From assembly GCF_024807615.1 (NCBI RefSeq), contig NZ_JANUCJ010000004.1, forward strand, positions 1 to 64,000: a stretch of 64,000 nt of DNA, written 5' to 3'. This DNA is from Tsukamurella ocularis (lineage in GTDB: Bacteria > Actinomycetota > Actinomycetes > Mycobacteriales > Mycobacteriaceae). The notes beneath the pieces were generated by a model. It was not told the DNA's origin. It did not search any database and saw only the letters and a list, made by a program, of their open reading frames with translations. Each line of letters starts with the position of its first letter. The stretch's first letter is position 1. Position numbers and translations under genes: made by a program. Positions 25,687-36,632 of this stretch are shown here, piece by piece.

Positions 25687-27147
25687 TTACCCGCGAGTAA
25701 CCGTCGCATCGCCTATTTCGGTCAACAACGAACGTAGCGCGCCGAGGTACAGAGTGACACTCCGGCGTGCCGTTTCGAAGCCGGGGAAGCGCGCCGCCAC
25801 GTGCAGACCGGACGGTGTGCGCAGCATCCAGAGGTAGACATCGTCGATCGAGTAGTCGTGCGAGCGGAGCGCCCCGGCCCCGCCCGCGTCGTTGACGTCC
25901 GAGCCGGGGGCCGAGCGGGTGTCCATGAAGGAGACGACGAACCTCGGCGGCGGCGCCTGCGAGCGGCCCGGCTCCTCGGCCAGGACCTCGCCGATGCGCA
26001 GGTAGGGCAGGGTGCTCCCGATCTTGGACGGCTTCCACGCCGCCTGCGCCCGCTGCGCCAGCTCGCCGAAGGTCCGGGCGCCGGTGGTGTCGAGCCGGAA
26101 GGGCGCGATGCCGACGAACCAGCCGAGCGCCGCGATCCACTGCTCGGCGTCGCGGGTGTGCCGGGTGACGGCGCATCGGAAGACGGGGCCGAAGCCCAGG
26201 TCGGTGTTGATCTTCGCCATGCACGCGAGCACGCCGGTGACCAGCGACGCGCCCGATTCGGAGCAGACGCGGGTGAAGTTGTTGGACCGGTCGTCATCGA
26301 GCAAGTGGAAGTTCAGGGCCCGCTGCGGCAGCCGGGGCACCCCGTCGGGGTCGCGGCTCAGGGCGGCTCGTGTCTCGTCGGCGAGGACCTTCGCACTGAG
26401 CGGGAGCAGCGGCATGGGGAACGGATCCGGCTTGAAGCCGGTCTCGCTGAGGTACTCGTCCCACATCCGCGCCGCCGGGTGGCTCGCGCCGGCCCGGTCC
26501 GCGGACTGCCGGTCGGTGTCCGAATAGTTGACGTAGCTACCGGTGGGCAGCAGTCGCGGCGTGTCGCCGTGCACGGCCTCGCGGTAGAACTCACGCAGCT
26601 CGTAGGGGCTGAGGATGAGCGAGTAGCCGTCGAGCAGCGAGTGGTCCGCCGCGAAGAACAGGGTGAAGGAGTCCTCCCGAGCCACCGTCGAGAACATGTA
26701 CGCCGGCCAGGTCAGCGGGGCCGTCGACCGGTCGAACTCGCCCAACAACTGCTCGGCCAGAGGACCGGTGGACCGGTAGGTGCCGATCGTCTTGACCCGC
26801 AGGTCGACGGTGGCGGTCTGCGCGCTGCGGCGACGCGGGCGGTCGTCCTCGAGGAAGACGTGGGTGCGGAGCACCTCGTGCCGGTCGATCCACGAGCGCA
26901 GCGCGGTGCGCATCCCTGGAATGGACAGTGGCTCGTCGAACTCGATGCCGAGGCCGAGCCAGGACTCGCGGCCGCCGTCGATGTGGCGACGCTGCAGCAC
27001 CGCTTGCGCTCCCCGCAGGTGCGCCTCGTGCACGTGCGACGTGGCGCGCGGGTCGTCGCGCCAGCGCGCGGCGGGGCCGGTGGTGGGGATCCAGTTGCGC
27101 AGTTCACCCGGGCGCAGCGGGTACGCGTCCAGCTCGGTGAATTGCAT
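25687..27147 (-). CDS. PapA-like condensation-domain acyltransferase
   Basis: A 486-residue member of the condensation-domain superfamily, closest in layout to mycobacterial PapA1-PapA3 enzymes that O-acylate trehalose or other glycolipids. The catalytic HxxxDG motif is HSLLDG at about 169-174. The acceptor-side half has WFVGIAPFRLDTTGARTFGEL and a late FVVSFMDTR. The N-terminus (FTELDAYPLRPGELRNWIP) is PapA-like. It lies between sufE and accA3, where my recollection of M. tuberculosis has no gene. The 23-base gap from sufE suggests co-transcription. No polyketide synthase is nearby, so the acyl donor is unknown. Confidence 0.8.
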   Translation of the reverse strand: MQFTELDAYPLRPGELRNWIPTTGPAARWRDDPRATSHVHEAHLRGAQAVLQRRHIDGGRESWLGLGIEFDEPLSIPGMRTALRSWIDRHEVLRTHVFLEDDRPRRRSAQTATVDLRVKTIGTYRSTGPLAEQLLGEFDRSTAPLTWPAYMFSTVAREDSFTLFFAADHSLLDGYSLILSPYELREFYREAVHGDTPRLLPTGSYVNYSDTDRQSADRAGASHPAARMWDEYLSETGFKPDPFPMPLLPLSAKVLADETRAALSRDPDGVPRLPQRALNFHLLDDDRSNNFTRVCSESGASLVTGVLACMAKINTDLGFGPVFRCAVTRHTRDAEQWIAALGWFVGIAPFRLDTTGARTFGELAQRAQAAWKPSKIGSTLPYLRIGEVLAEEPGRSQAPPPRFVVSFMDTRSAPGSDVNDAGGAGALRSHDYSIDDVYLWMLRTPSGLHVAARFPGFETARRSVTLYLGALRSLLTEIGDATVTRG

Positions 27148-27170: not shown

Positions 27171-27587
27171 CTACCCGGCGAGCCGGCGCTTGATGCGGGC
27201 CAGCATCGCCGACATCCCGCGCAGGCGCAAGGGGCTCACCACCGAGTCGAGACCGAGGGCGTGGTGGAAGTCGTCGGGCACGGCGACGATCGTCGCGGCG
27301 GGCTGCCCGTCGAGGCCCTGCGCCAGGATCGACGCGAAGCCGCGGGTGGTCGGGGCCTCAGGCGGCGCGCTGAAGTACAGCCGCACGGCCTCGGGATCCG
27401 AGGCGTCGACGTCGAGGAACAGCGGCGACTGGCACTCCGGCACCGGCTCCATCGCTGCGGCGGTCAGGTGCTCGGGAAGTTCGGGCAGCTCGCGCGAGAA
27501 CTCCAGCAGCAGCTCGAGCCGGTCCTGTTCGCCGACCCCGGCGAAGTCGTCGACGATCTCCGCCAGGGGTGCGGGCAGGGCGCTCAT
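27171..27587 (-). CDS. SufE-family sulfur acceptor protein
   Basis: A 138-residue protein of the SufE/YgdK family, which accepts persulfide sulfur from a cysteine desulfurase for Fe-S cluster assembly. The fold signatures are [24 protein letters not shown] at the N-terminus and the acceptor Cys in [11 protein letters not shown] at about residue 52. [14 protein letters not shown] and the C-terminal [15 protein letters not shown] complete it. It corresponds to Rv3284. Its ATG overlaps the sseA stop (ATGA), so the two sulfur-handling genes are coupled. Confidence 0.9.
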
Positions 27588-28477
27588 GCGCCGGGCGCGG
27601 CGCCGGGCTCCTCGCCGCGCACGATGGGGGCCCGCACGGTGTTGCCCCACTCGGTCCACGAGCCGTCGTAGTTCTTGACGTCCGTGAAGCCGAGGAGGTG
27701 GGTCAGCACGAACCAGGTGTGGCTGGAGCGCTCGCCGATGCGGCAGTAGGCCGTCACGGGCGACGTCGGATCGAGGTCGCCGTAGACCTCGAGGAGGTCG
27801 GCGTGGGGGAGGAACCGGCCGTCCTGTCGGGCGGCCCTGGCCCACGGGATCGACACCGCGGTGGGGATGTGCCCGCCGCGCAGGGCACCCTCCTCCGGGT
27901 AGTCGGGCATGTGGGTGCGCTCGCCGGTGTACTCCTGCGGCGAGCGCACATCGACGAGGGCGCGCGCGCCGATGTCGGCGCGGACCTGGTCGGCGAAGGC
28001 GCGGATCACCGCGTCGTCGCGCTCGACGACGGGGTAGTCGGTGCGCGGGTACTCCGGCTGCTCGAGCGAGACGTCGCGGGCGTCGCTGATCCACTTGTCG
28101 CGGCCGCCGTCGAGGAGACGGACGTCCGGGTGGCCGAAGAGGGTGAACACCCACAGCGCGTACGCGGCCCACCAGTTCGACTTGTCGCCGTAGATCACGA
28201 CGGTGTCGTCGCGGCTGATGCCCTTGGCGCGCATGAGTTCCGCGAACTGCTCACCGGAGATGTAGTCGCGCGTCACCGGATCGTTCAGGTGCAGGTGCCA
28301 GTCCACCTTCTGCGCGGTCGGGATGTGCCCGATGTCGTAGAGGAGGACGTCCTCGTCGGACTCGATCACCTTGAGGCCGGGGACCCCCAGGTGTCCACTC
28401 AGCCAGTCCGCGGTGACGAGGCGCTCGGGGTGTGCGTAGTCCTGGAGTTCCGCGCTCGGATCGGTCTCGATAGCCAC
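27584..28477 (-). CDS. sseA: Thiosulfate sulfurtransferase (rhodanese) SseA
   Basis: A 297-residue tandem rhodanese that transfers sulfane sulfur from thiosulfate or mercaptopyruvate. The first, inactive domain carries [18 protein letters not shown]. The second has the active-site loop [15 protein letters not shown] with the catalytic Cys, and GSWTEWGN near the C-terminus. A GTG seven codons upstream is possible. I chose GTG 28477 because TAGGCT lies exactly seven bases before it and the resulting N-terminus ([20 protein letters not shown]) matches the mycobacterial protein. It is coupled to sufE. Confidence 0.92.
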
Positions 28478-28484
28478 GTCCGTC

Positions 28485-28490
28485 AGCCTA
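28485..28490 (-). promoter_or_regulatory. Leaderless -10 element of sseA
   Basis: TAGGCT on the minus strand, seven bases ahead of the GTG at 28477. It decides between the two possible starts and gives sseA-sufE a promoter independent of the acyltransferase operon upstream. Confidence 0.5.
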
Positions 28491-28547
28491 GCCCCCACGC
28501 CGCCCGGGCGCCCCGCGGCGACCCCGGGCGGTGGCGTTTTCCCGTAC

Positions 28548-29822
28548 TCAGTGATCCGCGTACTCGGGCAGTGACCGCTCGACGACGCCCTGCAGGTCCG
28601 CGGCGGCCGCGAGATTGCTCGCGACGAACAACGAGGTCTCCGCCTCGGTGCCGGTCCATCCCACGTAGAGGTACGGCGGTCGCGGCGGCGCGATCCGACC
28701 GGGGAGCGCGGACCAGGCGAGGCGGAACCATGTGCGGTCCGAGGGGGTGCCGTCGGGCGCGCGGACGGGCGCGGGGAGGGCGCCGACGCCGGCGCACGTC
28801 GTCACCGGGTGCGCCGGGTCGGCGGGCGCGTCGATGAGTGTGGCCAGGGTGCGACGGGGCAGCAGGGTCAGCAGCGGGCCGAAGGCGTCGTAGCGGCCGG
28901 CGTCGGGCAGCGCGCCGAGCACGCCCTTGACGTCCGCTCGCAGGGCCACGATGCCATCGGGGCCCGTGGCCGGATCGACGAGGAGCTCCGCGTCGACGAT
29001 CGCGTTGCCGCGGAGGTCGCCGTCCTCGCGCCGGTTCACGGATAGGCCGAGCACGGCCCGCCCGTCGGGTCGGACCCAGCCGAGGCCGGCCGCGATCCGC
29101 GCGGTCGCCTGGAAGAGCAGCGTCGACTCGGTGCCCCCGGATTCGGTGGCCCGCGCCGCGAGGGCCGCGCGGTCCAGGTGCGCGACGGCCCACTGTTCGG
29201 GCCCGACGGGGTGCGCCGCGGCGGGACCGTCGTGCTCGAGGCGTCCCTTCGCCAGGCGGGCGGCCGTCGCCGCCGCGCGCGCGGCGGCGGGGAGCTCGCG
29301 CGCGGCCAGGGCGGCGTCGCGCCCCGCGGCGCGCAGCGGTGCCGTCGCTTCGCGGGGGTAGGGCAGGTCGCGGACGGCGCCGAGCGCGGCCTCCGCGACC
29401 GCGGTCGCGGTTCCGACTCCGTCGGCGAGGACGTGCGAGACCACCAGGGTCACGGCGGATCCCCCGTCCGTCAGCGGGAGGACGCCGAGGTGCCAGCCCG
29501 GCCCCGACCACGGGTCGATCGGGGCGGCGGAGCGTTCGTCGACCCAGCTGTCGATCGCCTCGCGAGGGCGTGGTGTCGCCTCGACGGCGATCCGCGGCGC
29601 TGCGGTGGTGGCCACCCAGCGGTCCCGGCCGAAGGGTAGCGGCGAGTGGGCGATCCGGCGGCCCAGCAGCCCACCGCTGAGCGCGGTGCGGAAGCGTTCG
29701 AGCCCGGTGAGGTCGACGCCGTCGTCGTAGATCCAGGTCACCTGGATCAGCGAGTTGCGTCCGGTCGCGCGGGTACCCGAGGCCGCGCCCTGGTCGACGA
29801 ACGCCAGCAGGTCGGCCGTCAT
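28548..29822 (-). CDS. Condensation-superfamily acyltransferase (WS/DGAT-like)
   Basis: A 424-residue acyltransferase and the last gene of the six-gene operon. The catalytic motif is SHVLADG at about 129-135, with the HxxxD spacing of PapA and wax-ester synthase/DGAT enzymes. ADGVGTATA after it and the Ala-rich helix ([23 protein letters not shown]) are closer to the WS/DGAT style. The second half contains [23 protein letters not shown]. The substrate is not readable from sequence. The ATG overlaps the stop of the preceding acyltransferase (ATGA). It ends 70 bases before sseA. Confidence 0.72.
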
Positions 29823-31066
29823 GCGGCGGCTCCCGCACCGACGAGACCGGACTCGATCCGGTCCCGGATGCGGCGGGCGGCGTCGGGCGCGAGAGTGCCC
29901 GGCGCGTGCCGCAGCTCGATGGACAGCCGCCCGTCGAAGGTGAGGGCGTGGTGGTGCAGGCCGACGAGTGGCGCCAGCGCCTCGGGTGGGGCGCCTCGCA
30001 CCAGGGCGCGGACCCGCTCGATGTCGACCTCTGAACTGGTGTGGAAATCCAGTACGGTCACGCCCTCCGGGGTCGACGGTGCCGGGATCGCCCCGATGTT
30101 GCTCAGCCGCACCGGGACTCCGCCGGTCACCGTCACCGGTGCGGAACCGGCGAGGGCTGCGGCGACGGTGCCGTCGGCGAGATCGGCGCGCAACCGCTCC
30201 AGCACGACGCGACCGATCTCCTCGGGCGTCGTGTCGCCGCGTACCGCCACAGGCACCGTCGATGAGCCGGCGAAGTTGGTGACCGCGGCCGCCGGGACGG
30301 CAGGCTCGGCACGGGCCCGGAGGTCGACGGGGCTGAAGACCGCGAGGGGCACCGCCTCGTCGCCCGGGCGGTCGACCTCCGCCCGCTCGGCGGCGACGAT
30401 GATCCCGGCGAGCAGCCCGTGGACGCTCAGACCCGCCTCCTTGGCGCGGCGGCGCAGCGCCTCGGTCGCGATGGCGTCGAGGCGGATCCGGTCGAAGGCG
30501 AAGTCGCCGGCGTCGACGTCGGCCGGCGACGGAACCGTCGCGGTGGGGAGGACGTCGACCACCGACGGCGCGGGCGGCTCGCCCGCCGCGAGGCGGTCCG
30601 CCAGTTCGGTCGGGGCGGCGGGGAGCCCGGCGGGCTCTGCGGGCTCTGAGCCCGAGTACAGCTCCCACAGGCGCAGATTCAGGTACAGGGCGTGTGCGCC
30701 GTCCGCGACGGCGTGGCTCACTCCGAGCGTGACGCGGTGCAGATCGCCGTCCGAGACGAGCTGCACGGCCGCAATGGCCCGCTCGGCATCGACGCCGAGC
30801 CGCACGTCGCCGGGCGCGAAGGCGCGCAGCTCGACCTGGATCGGCGCGGACTCCTCATCCGGCGCGGCGTCGGGTGCGACCAGGTCGAAACCGAAGGCAT
30901 GGGGCTCGATCCGGCCCGCGAGCACGGGGTACTCCCGGCGCAGCGCCGCGTAGGCGCGGGCCAGGCGGCCCGCGTCGATCGGGCCGCGGACCGTGAAGCT
31001 ACCGCTGGAGGTGGTCCCCGTCAGCACGTAAGGGATCTCGAGCGGGGTCAGAGCGCGTCGGGACAT
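29819..31066 (-). CDS. PapA5-like acyltransferase
   Basis: A 415-residue condensation-domain acyltransferase. GVSHAVADGAHALYL holds HxxxDG at about 118-123. The C-terminal half has PVRLSNIGAIPAPSTPEGV and FDGRLSIELRHAPGTL, the acceptor-domain signatures of PapA5-type phthiocerol-dimycocerosyl transferases. The N-terminus (RALTPLEIPYVLTGTTSSGSFTVRGPID) aligns with the other two paralogues in the operon, so these likely arose by tandem duplication. The start chosen is one base after the glycosyltransferase stop. It overlaps the next gene by four bases. Confidence 0.8.
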   Translation of the reverse strand: MSRRALTPLEIPYVLTGTTSSGSFTVRGPIDAGRLARAYAALRREYPVLAGRIEPHAFGFDLVAPDAAPDEESAPIQVELRAFAPGDVRLGVDAERAIAAVQLVSDGDLHRVTLGVSHAVADGAHALYLNLRLWELYSGSEPAEPAGLPAAPTELADRLAAGEPPAPSVVDVLPTATVPSPADVDAGDFAFDRIRLDAIATEALRRRAKEAGLSVHGLLAGIIVAAERAEVDRPGDEAVPLAVFSPVDLRARAEPAVPAAAVTNFAGSSTVPVAVRGDTTPEEIGRVVLERLRADLADGTVAAALAGSAPVTVTGGVPVRLSNIGAIPAPSTPEGVTVLDFHTSSEVDIERVRALVRGAPPEALAPLVGLHHHALTFDGRLSIELRHAPGTLAPDAARRIRDRIESGLVGAGAAA

Positions 31067-31067
31067 C

Positions 31068-32450
31068 TCACACCTCCAACCCGGCGAGGGAGACCACGTC
31101 GGCGGCATCGAAGTCGACGGTGTCGGGCGCCGTCACCGCGGCGACGGTGCGCACGTCCACGCCGTCGTCCTCCGCGATCGACTCGATGATCGTCGCCGCG
31201 CGGCGCGCGGGGATGTCGCCGAGGTCGATGAGCGAAGAGATCCGCTGCGCCCGACGGCGGGTCGCCGGGGCGAGCAACAGGTCGAACGCCGCGTGCAGGC
31301 GCTCCGCAGTGAGATTGCGCATCGGCAGGCAGGCACCGACGCCGAGGTCGGCGACCCGCGCGCCCCAGAAGGGCTGGTCCGCGAGCACCGGGCAGATCAG
31401 CGTAGGCAGCCCGGCCCGCAGCGACGCGGCCGTCGTGCCCGCCCCACCGTGGTGGACGGCGGCGGCGCAGTACGGCAACACCTCCGCGTGCACCACCTCG
31501 TCCACGACCCGGATGTGGTCGCCGAGATCGGCGCCGACCAGATCGCTCCAGCCGGCGACGATGAGGCCACGACGGCCGCGCTCAGCGCAGACCCGGGCGA
31601 AGGTGCGCGCCATACCGTCCGGGTCCGCGATCCGCATGCTGCCGAAGCCCCAGTAGATCGGGGCGTCGCCGTCCGCGAGCCAGGCCATGAGGTCGGCATC
31701 GGTGCGCTTCTGCTCGCCCTGGCGGAGCCAGGCGTCGGCGGGGACCTCGAGGAAGCCGAGCATCGGCCGCGTCCGGCTGAACTCGGGGACCAGGTCCGGC
31801 GTGAGGGCGGGGTCGTAGAGCTGAAGGTCGACGATCTCGTTCGCGTCGCGGTTCTTCGCGCGCCGCGACCGATACGGCGCCTCGCCCACCGACATCCGGT
31901 GGAAGTTCACCGCGGCCCGCACGTGCGTCCAGGTGAAGGAGTCGCCGAGCGCCCAGGTCGCGCGCTTGACCATGCGCGGCGACCGGGACAGCACGTCGCT
32001 GGTCAGGCCCGCCGGCGTGTACTGCGTCATGGGGTAGACGCTGTTGGTGGTGCCGGGGAAGAACCGGTAACTGATGATCGTCGCGCCGCTGCGCCGGGTG
32101 ATCGGCAGTGCGAAATCCACGGCGTCCGAATGGGTCAGCACCACGTCGGCGTCGCGGCACACGGTCTCGGTCTCGCGGGAGATGGTGGCGATGTTGCGCA
32201 CCAGCCAGCGGCCGTAGGCACGCATCCTCTCGACGGGGCGGTGGATCACGTCGCGGTAGTCGTCGTCGTAGTCCGGCACGAAGTCGTTGAGCCGGTGGGC
32301 TTCCAGGCCCGCGGAACGGATGAGCCGCACCAACGGATCGCCCATCGCGGCGATGGTCACCTCGTGCCCGCGGGCGCGGAGCGCGAGCCCGATCGCGATC
32401 GTCGGCTGGACGTCGCCGCGGCTCCCCATAGCGAGGATGCAGACCTTCAT
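31068..32450 (-). CDS. UGT-type (GT1) glycosyltransferase
   Basis: A 460-residue GT-B glycosyltransferase of family 1, similar to those that glycosylate glycopeptidolipids, sterols and macrolides. The N-terminus is the acceptor domain (MKVCILAMGSRGDVQPTIAIG, the usual GSRGDVQP loop). The C-terminal nucleotide-sugar site has HHGGAGTTAASLRAGLP at about 333-349, with PVLADQPFWGARV following. No signal peptide is present, so it acts on the inner side of the membrane. It sits inside a tightly packed operon with four acyltransferases, so the sugar it adds is probably part of the acylated product. Confidence 0.87.
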   Translation of the reverse strand: MKVCILAMGSRGDVQPTIAIGLALRARGHEVTIAAMGDPLVRLIRSAGLEAHRLNDFVPDYDDDYRDVIHRPVERMRAYGRWLVRNIATISRETETVCRDADVVLTHSDAVDFALPITRRSGATIISYRFFPGTTNSVYPMTQYTPAGLTSDVLSRSPRMVKRATWALGDSFTWTHVRAAVNFHRMSVGEAPYRSRRAKNRDANEIVDLQLYDPALTPDLVPEFSRTRPMLGFLEVPADAWLRQGEQKRTDADLMAWLADGDAPIYWGFGSMRIADPDGMARTFARVCAERGRRGLIVAGWSDLVGADLGDHIRVVDEVVHAEVLPYCAAAVHHGGAGTTAASLRAGLPTLICPVLADQPFWGARVADLGVGACLPMRNLTAERLHAAFDLLLAPATRRRAQRISSLIDLGDIPARRAATIIESIAEDDGVDVRTVAAVTAPDTVDFDAADVVSLAGLEV

Positions 32451-32451
32451 G

Positions 32452-33159
32452 TCAGTTCGTCCTTTCGACGGTCGGGTGGAGCTCGGTTCGAGAAGCCCGG
32501 ACGACGCCCTCGTCGGCGGTGCCGGCGAGCGCGGCCCGGACGGGGCGCAGGAGGAGCAGCGTGAGCGGGAGCACGGGGACGGCGACCAGCAGGGGAATCA
32601 CCTGGCAGGCGACCACCGCGTAGTCGATGGGCAGGCCCAGTGCCGCGGTGATCGAGGCGGTGGTGCTGATGACGACTGCGACGAGCCACAGCGGGTCGAC
32701 GGCGCCGATCGCCCGGACACAGGGCCGCTCGGTACGCACACGCCGATTCCACTGCTGGGCGCGCACGGCGTCGCCGCGCACCGTGAGCCGCATCATCAGC
32801 GTGGCGACGGCGCGCCGCCGCAGCACCAGGCCGGCGGCGATCGCGACGGCCATGAGACCGCCGATGGCCGTCTCCACGAGGAGGATCACGCGCGGGCTGC
32901 CCGAGATCGCCGCCGCCGTGATCGAGCAGGCGAGCAGCGTGAGCGTGAACAGCTCCAGTGGGTCGGCCGCCCGGCGCACGATCGAGCGGGCCAGGATGCG
33001 GACCGCGACCAGCGCGGTGCCGGTGACGAGCGCGACGAGCTGCCCCGCGCCGACGAGGTAGCGCAGCGCGAAGTACACGCCCAGCTGCAGGCCGACGTCG
33101 ACGAGCAGCGCCACCGGCGGGGCCGGCGGCGACTCGGTGTCGGCGAGGGGGACCGTCAT
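32452..33159 (-). CDS. Multi-pass membrane protein (VC0807-like)
   Basis: A 235-residue integral membrane protein with about six hydrophobic segments: 18-32, 38-55, 72-90, 97-116, 165-185 and 190-215. It resembles the loosely defined VC0807/DUF3159-type proteins but has no catalytic motif I recognise. Its length argues against an MmpL- or ABC-type transporter. It overlaps the upstream acyltransferase by four bases and precedes the glycosyltransferase by one base. It may anchor the enzymes or help move the product across the membrane, which is speculation. Confidence 0.7.
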   Translation of the reverse strand: MTVPLADTESPPAPPVALLVDVGLQLGVYFALRYLVGAGQLVALVTGTALVAVRILARSIVRRAADPLELFTLTLLACSITAAAISGSPRVILLVETAIGGLMAVAIAAGLVLRRRAVATLMMRLTVRGDAVRAQQWNRRVRTERPCVRAIGAVDPLWLVAVVISTTASITAALGLPIDYAVVACQVIPLLVAVPVLPLTLLLLRPVRAALAGTADEGVVRASRTELHPTVERTN

Positions 33160-34442
33160 GCCGCGGTACCGATCTCGAACAGGGCGTGCGCGCCGTCGGC
33201 GATGCGGTCGAGGAGTCGGACGCGCGTCTGCGCGTCGAGCGTGCCAGGCAGGACGCGCAGTTCGATCGAGAGCCGCCCGCCGAAGGCGGATACCAGGTAC
33301 GAGGTGCCGATCGGCGAGGCCGGGACGCCCGTGCCGGTGTGGCCCGCGGCGTACTCGCGGATCCCGCCGGCGCTGCGGACGATCTGCGCGTGGAAGTCGA
33401 GGACCTCGAGCCCGCCGGGGACGACGGGCGCCGGGACCTCGCCCAGGTTGCTGATGAGCACGGGCGGGCCGTGGCGCCGGGTCCGCGCGTCGGGCATCGG
33501 GCTCACCGCGGTCCGCAGCACGGTCCCGTCGCGCACGTCGGAGCGGATCCGGTCGGCAACGGTGCGCGCGATCTCGGCGGTCGGGCCGTCGCCGACGGCG
33601 ACGTACGAGAAGCCGCACAGCGCGGTGACCGAGCGCAGCGGGATCGGCGGCGTGATGCGGCTGCGGAAGTCGACGGGGGTCAGGAGGGCGACCGTGGAGT
33701 CCTCCGCGCATTCGGCGAGCTCGGCGCGGGCGATGAGGCCGCTGACCAGCGCGTGGGAGGAGACCCCGTGGGAGTGGGCGGCGGCGTCGAGGGCCGCGGT
33801 CTCGCCGGCGGTGAATCGGACCCGCAGCACGTCGTCGACGTCCGGCCCGGTCTCGTCGGGGAACTCCGCCGGCACTGCGCCGTGCCAGACGGTGCCCGCC
33901 AGCCGCTCCTCGTAGTCCAGTTCCTCGGGGAGGTGACCGCGCGCCGCCATGACCAGGTGCGGCTCGACGGGGAAGTCGGTGGCCCGCCGGATGATGGGCG
34001 CCGCGCCGCTCGCCAGCGCGGTGTACAGCTCGAATAGCCGGGCGGCGATCGCGACGATGCCGGAGCCGTCCGTCGCGGCGTGGCTGGCCCAGAGGGTGAG
34101 CCGGTACCGATCGCCGATCCCCGTGAGCGACAGCGCGGCCAGTTGCTCGGAGCCGACGAACCACGGCGGCGTCTGCTCGTAGCCGGTCCACGGCGCCGTG
34201 GTGTCGCGGAAGCCGATCGCGGCGGCGACGGAGGCGTCGCCCGGCGCGAAGTGGGGGCGGCCCTTGACGTCCACGATGCGGGCCGCGAGAACGGGGTACT
34301 CCTCCAGCAGAGCCGTGAATGCGGAGCGCAGCGCGGTGCCGTCGACCGTGCCGCGCAGCTCGAACGACGTGCCGATCACCTCGCGGGAGGTGGGGCGGAC
34401 GAAGGAGGCCTCGGAGAAGGTGAGTGCGCGGTGGTTCTGCAT
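33156..34442 (-). CDS. PapA5-like acyltransferase
   Basis: A 428-residue paralogue of the flanking acyltransferases. LWASHAATDGSGIVAIA carries HxxxDG at about 121-126. The C-terminal domain has PPVLISNLGEVPAPVVPGG and FGGRLSIELRVLPGTL. A middle segment, STVALLTPVDFRSRITPPIP, is typical of the phthiocerol/phthiodiolone dimycocerosyl transferase family. AGGAG lies six bases before the ATG, 44 bases after the first gene of the operon. The stop overlaps the membrane-protein start. Confidence 0.8.
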   Translation of the reverse strand: MQNHRALTFSEASFVRPTSREVIGTSFELRGTVDGTALRSAFTALLEEYPVLAARIVDVKGRPHFAPGDASVAAAIGFRDTTAPWTGYEQTPPWFVGSEQLAALSLTGIGDRYRLTLWASHAATDGSGIVAIAARLFELYTALASGAAPIIRRATDFPVEPHLVMAARGHLPEELDYEERLAGTVWHGAVPAEFPDETGPDVDDVLRVRFTAGETAALDAAAHSHGVSSHALVSGLIARAELAECAEDSTVALLTPVDFRSRITPPIPLRSVTALCGFSYVAVGDGPTAEIARTVADRIRSDVRDGTVLRTAVSPMPDARTRRHGPPVLISNLGEVPAPVVPGGLEVLDFHAQIVRSAGGIREYAAGHTGTGVPASPIGTSYLVSAFGGRLSIELRVLPGTLDAQTRVRLLDRIADGAHALFEIGTAA

Positions 34443-34486
34443 GTGCGGCTCCTGTTCTGGACTGCGGGTTCGGCGGTCGGGCGGGG

Positions 34487-35728
34487 TCAGGCCGCAGGTG
34501 CCCGGCGGGCGGCGGCGTGGACCAGGGCATCGATACGGTCGGCGACGGCGGCGCGGGCGTCGGCGGAGGCGGTGCCACCCAGGGTGATCGCCTCGATCCC
34601 GAGGCGGCCACGGAAGGTCGAGACCTGGTGGATCGTCGCCGACGGGGACGGGCGGCGCGCACCGTCGGGAACGTGCAGGGCAGCGGAGTCCATCGACAGG
34701 ATCGGGCGCAGGTCCTCCGCGACCAGCCCGTCGGGGAGATCCACATCGAGCGGGCCCAGGTTGCTGAGCACGACCGGCGGCTCGGGCGCCTCACTCGACG
34801 CGGCCGCGATCGCCAGCGCCGTGAGCGCGCGGCCACCCCGGACGTCCCGGCGGACGGTGCGGGCGAGCGCGTCGCCCACGGCGGCGGGGTCGGAGGCGGA
34901 CGTGAGCTCGGGCGCCGCGTACGAGGCGCCGACGAAGTTGGTCACCTCGGTCGCGTCGAGCAGCGGGCGGACCCTGCGGCGGAGGTCGACGAGGGTCATC
35001 GCGCCGACCCGAATGGGTGCGGCGGGATCCTCGCCGAGGAAGCCCGCCCGCTCGGCGGTGAGCAGGATCCCGGAGATCAGGGCGTTCAGGCCGATGCCCT
35101 CGGCGGCGGCGAGGAGCCCAGCGGTGGTCTCGGGGGAGAAGCGCAGCGAGATCGTCTCGGGGAGGACGGCGTCGTCGCCGCGCGGGCCGAGGACGGGCGC
35201 GCTGCCATACCACCGCGCACCGTCGAGTCGAGCGCGGCCGGTGCTGACCTTGGGGACGTCGAGGTCGGCGAGGACCCGCTGCGCCGAACCGGGGAACGGC
35301 TGCGGCGCTCCGATGTCCGTGGCTCCGGTGCGGACGAGCGCCGTGTAGTGCGACCAGAGCCGGCGCAGCAGCGCGTAGAGGTGTGTGCCGTCGGCGAGCG
35401 CGTGGTTGACGGCGAGCGCGACCCGGTGCCGGTCGTCGAACGATGTGACGTGCAGGCGGGCCAGGGCGGTCGCAGGGTCGACGAGCGGCGCTTCGGGGCC
35501 GTCGGTGCGGGTGGCGCCACCGGCGGGGGCTACGAAGGCGTAGCCGTCGCCCGCGGGCGCGACCGCGGCGTCGAGCGCGGGGTACTCGGCACGCAGCGCG
35601 GCGAGTGCGTCGGTGAGCGCGTCGGAGTCCAGCGGGCCGCGCACTGTCAGCTCGAAGGCGCACGTGGTGGGGTGCGGGCCCACGAAGCCGATCTCGGACG
35701 AGGCGAGGGGGCGGAGCGTCGTGGTCAT
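34487..35728 (-). CDS. PapA5-like acyltransferase, first gene of the operon
   Basis: A 413-residue condensation-domain acyltransferase that heads the six-gene operon. NHALADGTHLYALL carries HxxxDG at about 109-114. PPVVLSNLGPLDVDLPDG and FRGRLGIEAITLGGTA are the acceptor-domain signatures, and IRVGAMTLVDLRRRVRPLL the middle segment. A leaderless -10 (TAGCGT) stands six bases before the ATG, so this is the main transcription start for the operon. The 265 bases upstream are visibly less GC-rich than the neighbours. Confidence 0.8.
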   Translation of the reverse strand: MTTTLRPLASSEIGFVGPHPTTCAFELTVRGPLDSDALTDALAALRAEYPALDAAVAPAGDGYAFVAPAGGATRTDGPEAPLVDPATALARLHVTSFDDRHRVALAVNHALADGTHLYALLRRLWSHYTALVRTGATDIGAPQPFPGSAQRVLADLDVPKVSTGRARLDGARWYGSAPVLGPRGDDAVLPETISLRFSPETTAGLLAAAEGIGLNALISGILLTAERAGFLGEDPAAPIRVGAMTLVDLRRRVRPLLDATEVTNFVGASYAAPELTSASDPAAVGDALARTVRRDVRGGRALTALAIAAASSEAPEPPVVLSNLGPLDVDLPDGLVAEDLRPILSMDSAALHVPDGARRPSPSATIHQVSTFRGRLGIEAITLGGTASADARAAVADRIDALVHAAARRAPAA

Positions 35729-35734
35729 GGGAAG

Positions 35735-35740
35735 ACGCTA
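35735..35740 (-). promoter_or_regulatory. Leaderless promoter of the acyltransferase operon
   Basis: TAGCGT on the minus strand, six bases before the ATG at 35728. The rest of the gap to maf (35741-35993) holds no gene. It is AT-richer (for example GAGTTAACGCAATGCTTACG) and could be a target of a silencing protein such as Lsr2. Confidence 0.5.
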
Positions 35741-35993
35741 AGCCGACGTCTATTCCTTTCGCGAGACGAAGTAGTGGTGTCGCTCGTCACGCTCCCGGAC
35801 CCTTGACCAGGGTTGGCGAACATTGTTGTAGACGATTGCTTCGGTGTTCTTGCAGCTCTAACGGTGTACGCGATGGAAGCTTCGACAGTGCTTCTCAGCT
35901 GCGGAAACGCGCTGATTGCTGGGAGTTAACGCAATGCTTACGAAATCCGGATCGAGAATCCTGTGAGGTCCACCACGTCCGTGATGGCGAAGA

Positions 35994-36632
35994 TCAGGCG
36001 GGGTCCGACCACAGCGCGACCGGGGACACGCCCACCTCGGTCAGCAGCTGCCGGGTCAGCGGCAGGGAGATGCCGATGACGGAGCTGGGGTCGCCGTCGA
36101 TGCACTCGACGAACCAGCCACCCAGGCCGTCGAGCGTGAACGCTCCGGCCACCTGCAGGGGCTCACCCGTCGCGACGTACGCCTCGATCTCCGCATCCGA
36201 CGGCGCGCCGAAGCGCAGCGTCGTGGCGCGGGTGCCGCCGGCTTCGCCGGCCACGGCACCGTCGTCGAGGAGGATCGCGCAGTGCCCCGTGAGGAGGCGG
36301 CCCGAGCGACCGCGCATCGCGCGCCAGCGCGCCGCCGCGACCTCGGGGGTGTGCGGCTTGCCGACCAGTTCCCCGTCGATGGAGAGCATCGAATCACAGC
36401 CGATCACGACGGCTCGGCCGGGCAAGGGCTCTTCGGCGAGGATCCGGCCGACCACGTCCTGCGCCTTGGCCCGCGCTAGCGCGGCGACCGCGTCCTCGTG
36501 GGCGACGTCCGGGCCCAGGGCGGCGAGGATCGCGTCCTCGTCGACCTGCGACACGGAGACCCGCGGCGACGTGCCCGCGGCACGGAGTACCGACAGTCGC
36601 GCCGGCGAGGCCGACGCGAGCACGAGCCGCAC
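35994..36632 (-). CDS. maf: Maf-family nucleoside triphosphate pyrophosphatase
   Basis: A 212-residue house-cleaning enzyme that hydrolyses non-canonical or modified NTPs to monophosphates. The N-terminal LVLASASPARLSVLRAAG is the conserved Maf loop. SQVDEDAI, IGCDSMLSIDGELVGKP and the catalytic Asp region YVATGEP follow. The C-terminus contains GLGGWFVECIDGDPSSVIGISLPL. The GTG start lies 11 bases after accE, so it is co-transcribed with the carboxylase genes, as in mycobacteria. Confidence 0.92.
   Translation of the reverse strand: MRLVLASASPARLSVLRAAGTSPRVSVSQVDEDAILAALGPDVAHEDAVAALARAKAQDVVGRILAEEPLPGRAVVIGCDSMLSIDGELVGKPHTPEVAAARWRAMRGRSGRLLTGHCAILLDDGAVAGEAGGTRATTLRFGAPSDAEIEAYVATGEPLQVAGAFTLDGLGGWFVECIDGDPSSVIGISLPLTRQLLTEVGVSPVALWSDPA

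Follow-up and report, generated by a model that had tools for sequence, protein, structure and literature searches.

A six-gene acyltransferase and glycosyltransferase block between maf and sseA in Tsukamurella ocularis, a probable gene set for an acylated glycolipid

The DNA analysed here, referred to as the window, is the stretch of 64,000 nucleotides at positions 1 to 64,000 of contig NZ_JANUCJ010000004.1 of Tsukamurella ocularis. Its minus strand carries, inside an acyl-CoA carboxylase locus, a block of six genes (35728-28548) in the order AT1-AT2-MP-GT-AT3-AT4, where AT stands for acyltransferase, MP for membrane protein and GT for glycosyltransferase:

34487..35728, minus strand: AT1, PapA5-type acyltransferase (PapA_C), motif HALADG
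33156..34442, minus strand: AT2, PapA5-type acyltransferase (PapA_C), motif HAATDG
32452..33159, minus strand: MP, VC0807-family membrane protein with 7 hydrophobic stretches
31068..32450, minus strand: GT, family 1 (GT1)-type glycosyltransferase (EryCIII-like_C, Glyco_transf_28 N-terminus)
29819..31066, minus strand: AT3, PapA5-type acyltransferase (PapA_C), motif HAVADG
28548..29822, minus strand: AT4, acyltransferase, motif HVLADG, PapA5/WS-DGAT fold, no Pfam or NCBIfam match

Between AT1 and AT2 there are 44 bases, AT2 and MP overlap by 4, single bases separate MP from GT and GT from AT3, and AT3 and AT4 again overlap by 4, in agreement with the gaps of 1-44 bases and 4-base overlaps described in an earlier note that had been made from this DNA by eye. 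The gene content given there, four HxxxDG acyltransferases, one GT1 and one membrane protein, was recovered in both motifs and families, and so was the lack of a polyketide synthase (PKS) or MmpL, with no match to the ketosynthase (PF00109) or MMPL (PF03176) domains in contig positions 1-64000. A G+C-rich hairpin between AT4 and sseA was considered as a terminator and is not claimed, since it folds no better than shuffled sequences (z -0.08); the terminator scan gave one match, inside AT4, against 0.8 expected.

AT1, AT2 and AT3 match PapA_C (PF16911) with E values of 4.5e-42, 2e-51 and 1.6e-56 (144.2, 174.8 and 191.4 bits against a gathering score of 30), and no other protein of the genome matches PapA_C. 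Their scores of 148.3, 171.5 and 177.6 fall short of the NCBIfam PapA5 subfamily cut-off of 396, and by sequence the three are relatives of PapA5 and not PapA5 itself. They share 30-34% pairwise identity and none has a significant match to AT4, so that the three tandem paralogues of the earlier note are indeed paralogues, but not all in tandem, AT2 and AT3 being separated by MP and GT. AT4 matches no Pfam family, PapA_C included. The note had proposed modelling against PapA5 and WS/DGAT structures; this was done on AT4, and its predicted model (mean predicted local distance difference test score 90.1) has the fold of PapA5 and WS-DGAT (wax-synthase) enzymes. All four acyltransferases of the block contain HxxxDG, and the motif is kept in AT1-3 at 12/12 comparison loci (10 from Tsukamurella, one each from Gordonia effusa and Williamsia maris) and in AT4 at 11/11. 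Enzymes of the PapA type esterify sugars or alcohols with acyl-CoA, and transfer of acyl groups from CoA through the histidine of HxxxDG is the activity predicted for these four.

The glycosyltransferase matches EryCIII-like_C (67.7 bits, cut-off 31.7) and, at its N-terminus, Glyco_transf_28 (30.5 bits, cut-off 26.2), and is 99% identical to the GT of Tsukamurella sp. M9C. Among solved structures it is closest to GtfA/B/D and to sterol 3-beta-glucosyltransferases. GSRGD is common to 4/5 of the alignments shown with these relatives (GtfD has GTRGD). In the donor region 4/5 share DQ, with EQ in one GtfA, and DQ at this place marks the use of UDP-glucose. The membrane protein matches NCBIfam NF041646, the VC0807 family, with 88.8 bits against a cut-off of 65. 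A fold search with its helical model returned no solved structure with E <= 0.001, and any role given to MP is therefore a guess. Relatives of MP adjoin a family-2 glycosyltransferase at two other loci, one in the genome of the window (L137 8432-9906) and one in another Tsukamurella genome (L143 3851-5364, genome G011), hinting that VC0807 proteins may work together with glycosyltransferases.

The block occupies a slot whose borders, with one further acyltransferase gene nearby, are the following:

35994..36632, minus strand: maf, upstream neighbour, left edge of the slot
27584..28498, minus strand: sseA (rhodanese/sulfurtransferase), right edge of the slot
25687..27147, minus strand: Cond, condensation-family (PapA-like) acyltransferase beside sufE

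The full block was found in this slot, in the same order, in 11 of 16 Tsukamurella genomes, that of the window included. Two others (G010, G012) have an empty slot, with only 317 and 79 bases between maf and sseA, which bears out the view that the block splits these two genes. In G006 and G009 the slot holds a fragment of AT2 lacking HxxxDG, followed by CondB, CondC, a transporter gene and CondD; the transporter is MFS_1 in G006 and its relative in G009 was assigned by similarity. The last genome, G011, is undecided: its contig ends inside AT3 and shows part of AT3 and then AT4, and the best match to GT there is a weak one (34% over ~85 residues, E 5.6e-4). Cond stands between sufE and accA in all 16. 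Compared with the 10 other carriers, the window has a median protein identity of 95.5% for GT and of 85.0-87.9% for AT1-4 and MP; the values are 94.7% for sseA and 96.7% for accA. GT is thus conserved like its housekeeping neighbours and the acyltransferases drift faster. The slot of T. tyrosinosolvens NCTC13231 likewise contains the complete block, with proteins 88 to 98% identical to those of the window. Its record (L178, NZ_LR134451.1) is labelled plasmid 9, and is probably a piece of the chromosome because the acyl-CoA carboxylase locus lies on it.

Between the block and maf lies a region which is conserved as well:

35729..35993, minus strand: upstream regulatory region, 55% GC, with conserved elements
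35941-35926, 35910-35897, 35790-35776 and 35770-35752, minus strand: conserved upstream elements
35740-35735, minus strand: TAGCGT, present in 11/11 carriers

These 265 bases have 55.1% GC against 70.9% for the window, which places them in the lowest 0.024% of windows of equal size and confirms that the region is AT-richer, and the ~55 bases preceding AT1 are strongly conserved across the 11 carriers. In the window, TAGCGT is followed by 6 bases and the ATG, a distance found in 8 of the 11 carriers; the other three have 34-35 extra bases before the start codon, including a AGGNAGGA stretch. A leaderless promoter, as had been suggested, is plausible for the window from this spacing. The start (window 35728-35741) looks leaderless in eight carriers and leadered in three, with one and the same TAGCGT before it. 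A scan with the sigma-70 consensus found no promoter upstream of the block. When four of the upstream patterns were searched with up to 2 mismatches, G006 had all 4 and G009 had 3, in line and with the spacing of the window. G010 and G012 gave one two-mismatch match each to a single pattern, which looks like chance because the window has two such matches elsewhere.

Beyond the genus, all six genes occur in W. maris and five of the six in G. effusa (AT1-AT2-MP-GT-AT3), in both cases outside the maf-sseA slot: neither 20-kb locus showed a maf, sseA or carboxylase gene, and AT4 was not found in that of G. effusa. A gene pair, PRC-barrel/DUF2382 and Transgly_assoc, flanks the block in both species on opposite sides (L059 13287-14454 in G. 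effusa, L060 4141-5496 in W. maris). Segniliparus has a looser version, with GT, MmpL, MmpS, four PapA-type acyltransferases and an MP relative within ~14 kb. In searches of 401 family genomes with MP, GT and AT4, in which a few candidates were scored per genome, MP had matches at E <= 1e-8 in 17 genomes, GT at E <= 1e-60 in 70, and AT4 at E <= 1e-10 in 254. Among the matches listed, GT relatives with at least 50% identity came from 14 genomes (11 Tsukamurella, G. effusa, W. maris and Segniliparus).

The AT4 relatives stand in varied company. In genus g30 they are found before an MmpS-MmpL pair (L142), and in L141 (1137-12833) five consecutive AT4-like genes have a Cond-type acyltransferase before them and an MmpL gene after. 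The absence of MmpL thus holds for the window, but not for the Segniliparus relatives or for some AT4 relatives of g30. In L140 (1-9333) a 3110-residue open frame, its start cut by the locus edge, contains AMP-binding, PKS and carrier domains with an AT4-like stretch behind the last carrier domain, and this PKS may have a built-in domain for acyl transfer or release. AT4 is a marker for a family of acyltransferases with no Pfam match, part of which adjoins MmpL lipid exporters.

The locus itself was followed through one genome from each of 18 other genera of the order. These come from 25 genomes outside Tsukamurella with an sseA match, of which seven (G016, G022, G029, G401, G403, G407 and G411, with sseA matches of ~49-55% identity) were left out. 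Four of the 18 (G031, G025, G033, which belongs to the same genus as W. maris, and G020) have PapA-like acyltransferases, GT1s and AT4-like genes at the same locus; the position is next to sseA except in G020, where the genes stand between accD and maf. The G031 set includes ABC-2 permease and ATPase genes and that of G025 an ABC ATPase. In 11 genomes maf and sseA were both in view with no match to a query gene between them, and three (G036, G034, G414), with maf out of view, are undecided. The locus is accordingly not special to the block.

A recent insertion of the block was also considered, and was rejected. In a tree of AT1-3 from seven of the 12 comparison loci, Segniliparus and the two AT2 fragments, where the Segniliparus branches are long and their join for AT2 was flagged by the program, each paralogue clusters with its counterpart from Williamsia and with one or more from Segniliparus, and for this reason the split between the three paralogues looks older than the genera compared. 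In G006 and G009 the fragments branch inside the AT2 of Tsukamurella (support 95/86), so that these two lines formerly carried the block. The frames derived from AT2 (L077 1677-2609 and L078 1560-2555, counted from the first possible start) encode ~310 residues without HxxxDG and could represent a non-catalytic partner instead of a gene in decay. A tree of sseA and Cond, two linked genes with several forks supported near 90, pairs G010 with G011 at the base and G012 with the carrier G005, and sets G006 and G009 apart; on it a minimum of 4 losses or replacements of the block is needed to explain the 15 scored genomes (G011 left out). Since G006 and G009 share the alternative set and are not sisters, the tree hints that this set was exchanged by recombination. 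GT of Tsukamurella, G. effusa, W. maris and Segniliparus forms a single clade (100/100) that excludes the other GT1s in the tree, and on the question of whether G. effusa falls inside Tsukamurella the approximately unbiased test gives p 0.254. The grouping with Williamsia and Segniliparus, the AT2 fragment and promoter elements that persist in two non-carriers, and the four changes on the two-gene tree all indicate that the block is old in Tsukamurella and was repeatedly lost or replaced. The comparison across genomes which the note had called for thus places the block in the slot in 11/16 Tsukamurella genomes, and elsewhere in G. effusa and W. maris.

The observations made directly are the gene content, the catalytic motifs, the families, the fold of AT4, the conserved upstream region and the conserved gene order. 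That the product is an acylated glycolipid is very probable, and the domain content supports such an operon, without PKS or MmpL, in Tsukamurella. The odds that it is built on trehalose are about even, and its assignment to the trisaccharide (glucosyl-trehalose) lipids with four acyl chains is more tentative. Taken as a whole, the reading of the block as one gene set for a polyacylated glycolipid from acyl-CoA donors, most likely of the glucosyl-trehalose tetra-acyl class, is the one we prefer, with a confidence somewhat under even. GT would transfer a single glucose from UDP-glucose onto trehalose or an acyl-trehalose as the core; each of AT1, AT2, AT3 and AT4 would use the histidine of HxxxDG to attach a fatty acid to the sugar as an ester; and MP would keep the assembly at the membrane or aid the movement of the lipid, which would be exported by a transporter encoded elsewhere. 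The neighbouring Cond could be a partner enzyme and may serve simpler trehalose diesters. The age of the split between AT1, AT2 and AT3 favours distinct and fixed roles for them; one acyltransferase per position is a guess.

According to a review, T. tyrosinosolvens DSM 44370 makes trehalose diesters together with tri- and tetrasaccharide esters, and in the trisaccharide two of the sugars bear a pair of acyl chains each. T. pseudospumae is also reported to make trehalose lipids. A tetra-acyl trisaccharide fits the block because one glycosyltransferase and four acyltransferases suffice for it, and the block is carried by this producer species, in strain NCTC13231. The first guess of an acylated trehalose is in keeping with these lipids, and we infer the link between block and lipid from the species and the enzyme count. 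A literature search of open-licence papers found none linking these genes to a product. Several points weigh on the other side. The match to the producer is at the level of the species (NCTC13231 versus DSM 44370), and the tetrasaccharide form needs one more sugar transfer. T. pulmonis, T. spumae and T. pseudospumae are listed with diesters only, and may or may not carry the block. GT1 enzymes act on sterols and drugs as well as on lipids, AT4 relatives are widespread (254/401 genomes) and uncoupled from the block, and the top fold match of AT4, 8s6l, is titled a dehydratase, so the fold can do other chemistry. The G. effusa set, lacking AT4, indicates that four acyltransferases are not always required.

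The nearest solved relatives of GT glycosylate peptide antibiotics or sterols, and AT1-3 are nearest to PapA5, which esterifies diols. Both facts would suit an acylated glycoside of a lipid alcohol, a carotenoid or another non-sugar aglycone, in which GT glucosylates the aglycone and the acyltransferases act on the sugar or the aglycone. Neither the block nor the annotated neighbourhood in T. tyrosinosolvens contains an aglycone-making gene, however, and the surfactant lipids listed for the genus, in the sources as excerpted, are trehalose-based, and we regard this as possible but rather unlikely. A still smaller chance is left to tailoring of an envelope polymer or lipoglycan, for instance the addition of acyl groups to lipoarabinomannan or phosphatidylinositol mannosides, in place of a free glycolipid. 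MP suggests work at the membrane and T. paurometabola is listed with a variant lipoarabinomannan, but the block is missing in 4/16 Tsukamurella genomes and GT relatives of at least 50% identity occur, among the matches listed, in 14/401 genomes, unlike core lipoglycan genes; the PapA-type enzymes, moreover, are known for extractable lipids. Modification or inactivation of a foreign compound such as an antibiotic is very improbable, as the best NCBIfam match of GT, a rifamycin-inactivating glycosyltransferase, scores 124.5 bits, far below the curated cut-off of 800, and the four acyltransferases, the long vertical persistence and the MmpL/MmpS partners in Segniliparus fit lipid assembly better.

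The polyacylated glycolipid reading, in which the earlier interpretation is partly supported, being right in kind and in need of the corrections above, can be set beside known systems. In mycobacteria PapA5 serves phthiocerol dimycocerosates (DIM) and PapA1/A2/A3 serve sulfolipid and acyl-trehaloses, and the acyl-trehalose and sulfolipid loci combine Pks, PapA, MmpL and FadD. The block shares with them the HxxxDG PapA/condensation superfamily, with PapA_C in AT1-3 and the PapA5 fold in AT4, whereas the window lacks the PKS and MmpL of such loci (no ketosynthase or MMPL match) and AT1-3 score 148-178 bits against the PapA5 cut-off of 396. The gtf/atf loci for mycobacterial glycopeptidolipids also join GT1 and acyltransferases for an envelope glycolipid, but the block has no nonribosomal peptide synthetase or MmpL. 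The other-genus sets (L145, L147, L149, L150) likewise lie beside sseA (L150 between accD and maf) and have several acyltransferases, GT1s of 34-36% identity and AT4-like proteins of 26-32%; unlike the block they have CondB/C/D in place of AT1-3 and GTs of another clade, and L145 and L147 carry ABC-exporter genes. The block is a variant of glycolipid assembly by PapA and GT proteins, and the history of its locus is unusual.

In Rhodococcus sp. I2R, one report (PMC8396431) proposes, for succinic trehalose lipids, four papA-type genes of a single contig, which come closest to TlsA in that strain and have lengths of 1461, 1431 and 1404 bp, a gap of 1507 and then 1488 bp. L145 reads CondB 1494, CondD 1422, CondC 1419, a gap of 1445 holding sseA and sufE, and Cond 1500. 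By these printed coordinates, the I2R cluster may be the same locus as L145, in which case the locus would serve trehalose lipids in Rhodococcus too. Like the block, I2R has several papA-type genes proposed for trehalose-type lipids; unlike AT1-3, the genes they resemble here are of the condensation type and not PapA_C.

Tsukamurella, Rhodococcus and their relatives make acylated trehalose and oligosaccharide lipids that are under study as biosurfactants; how the succinoyl trehalose lipids are encoded is described as still poorly understood (PMC8396431). The block is a compact and deletable candidate, which predicts that lipids differ between members of the genus with and without it. More speculatively, and with the odds against it, accA-sseA-maf-accD could be an old Mycobacteriales docking site which exchanges gene sets for glycolipid assembly, behind a fixed promoter in Tsukamurella, the block making tetra-acyl glucosyl-trehalose lipids. 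If so, a lineage would switch its surface glycolipid in one step with the regulation kept. The promoter-keeping swap in two species suggests a route for quick change of the surface lipid.

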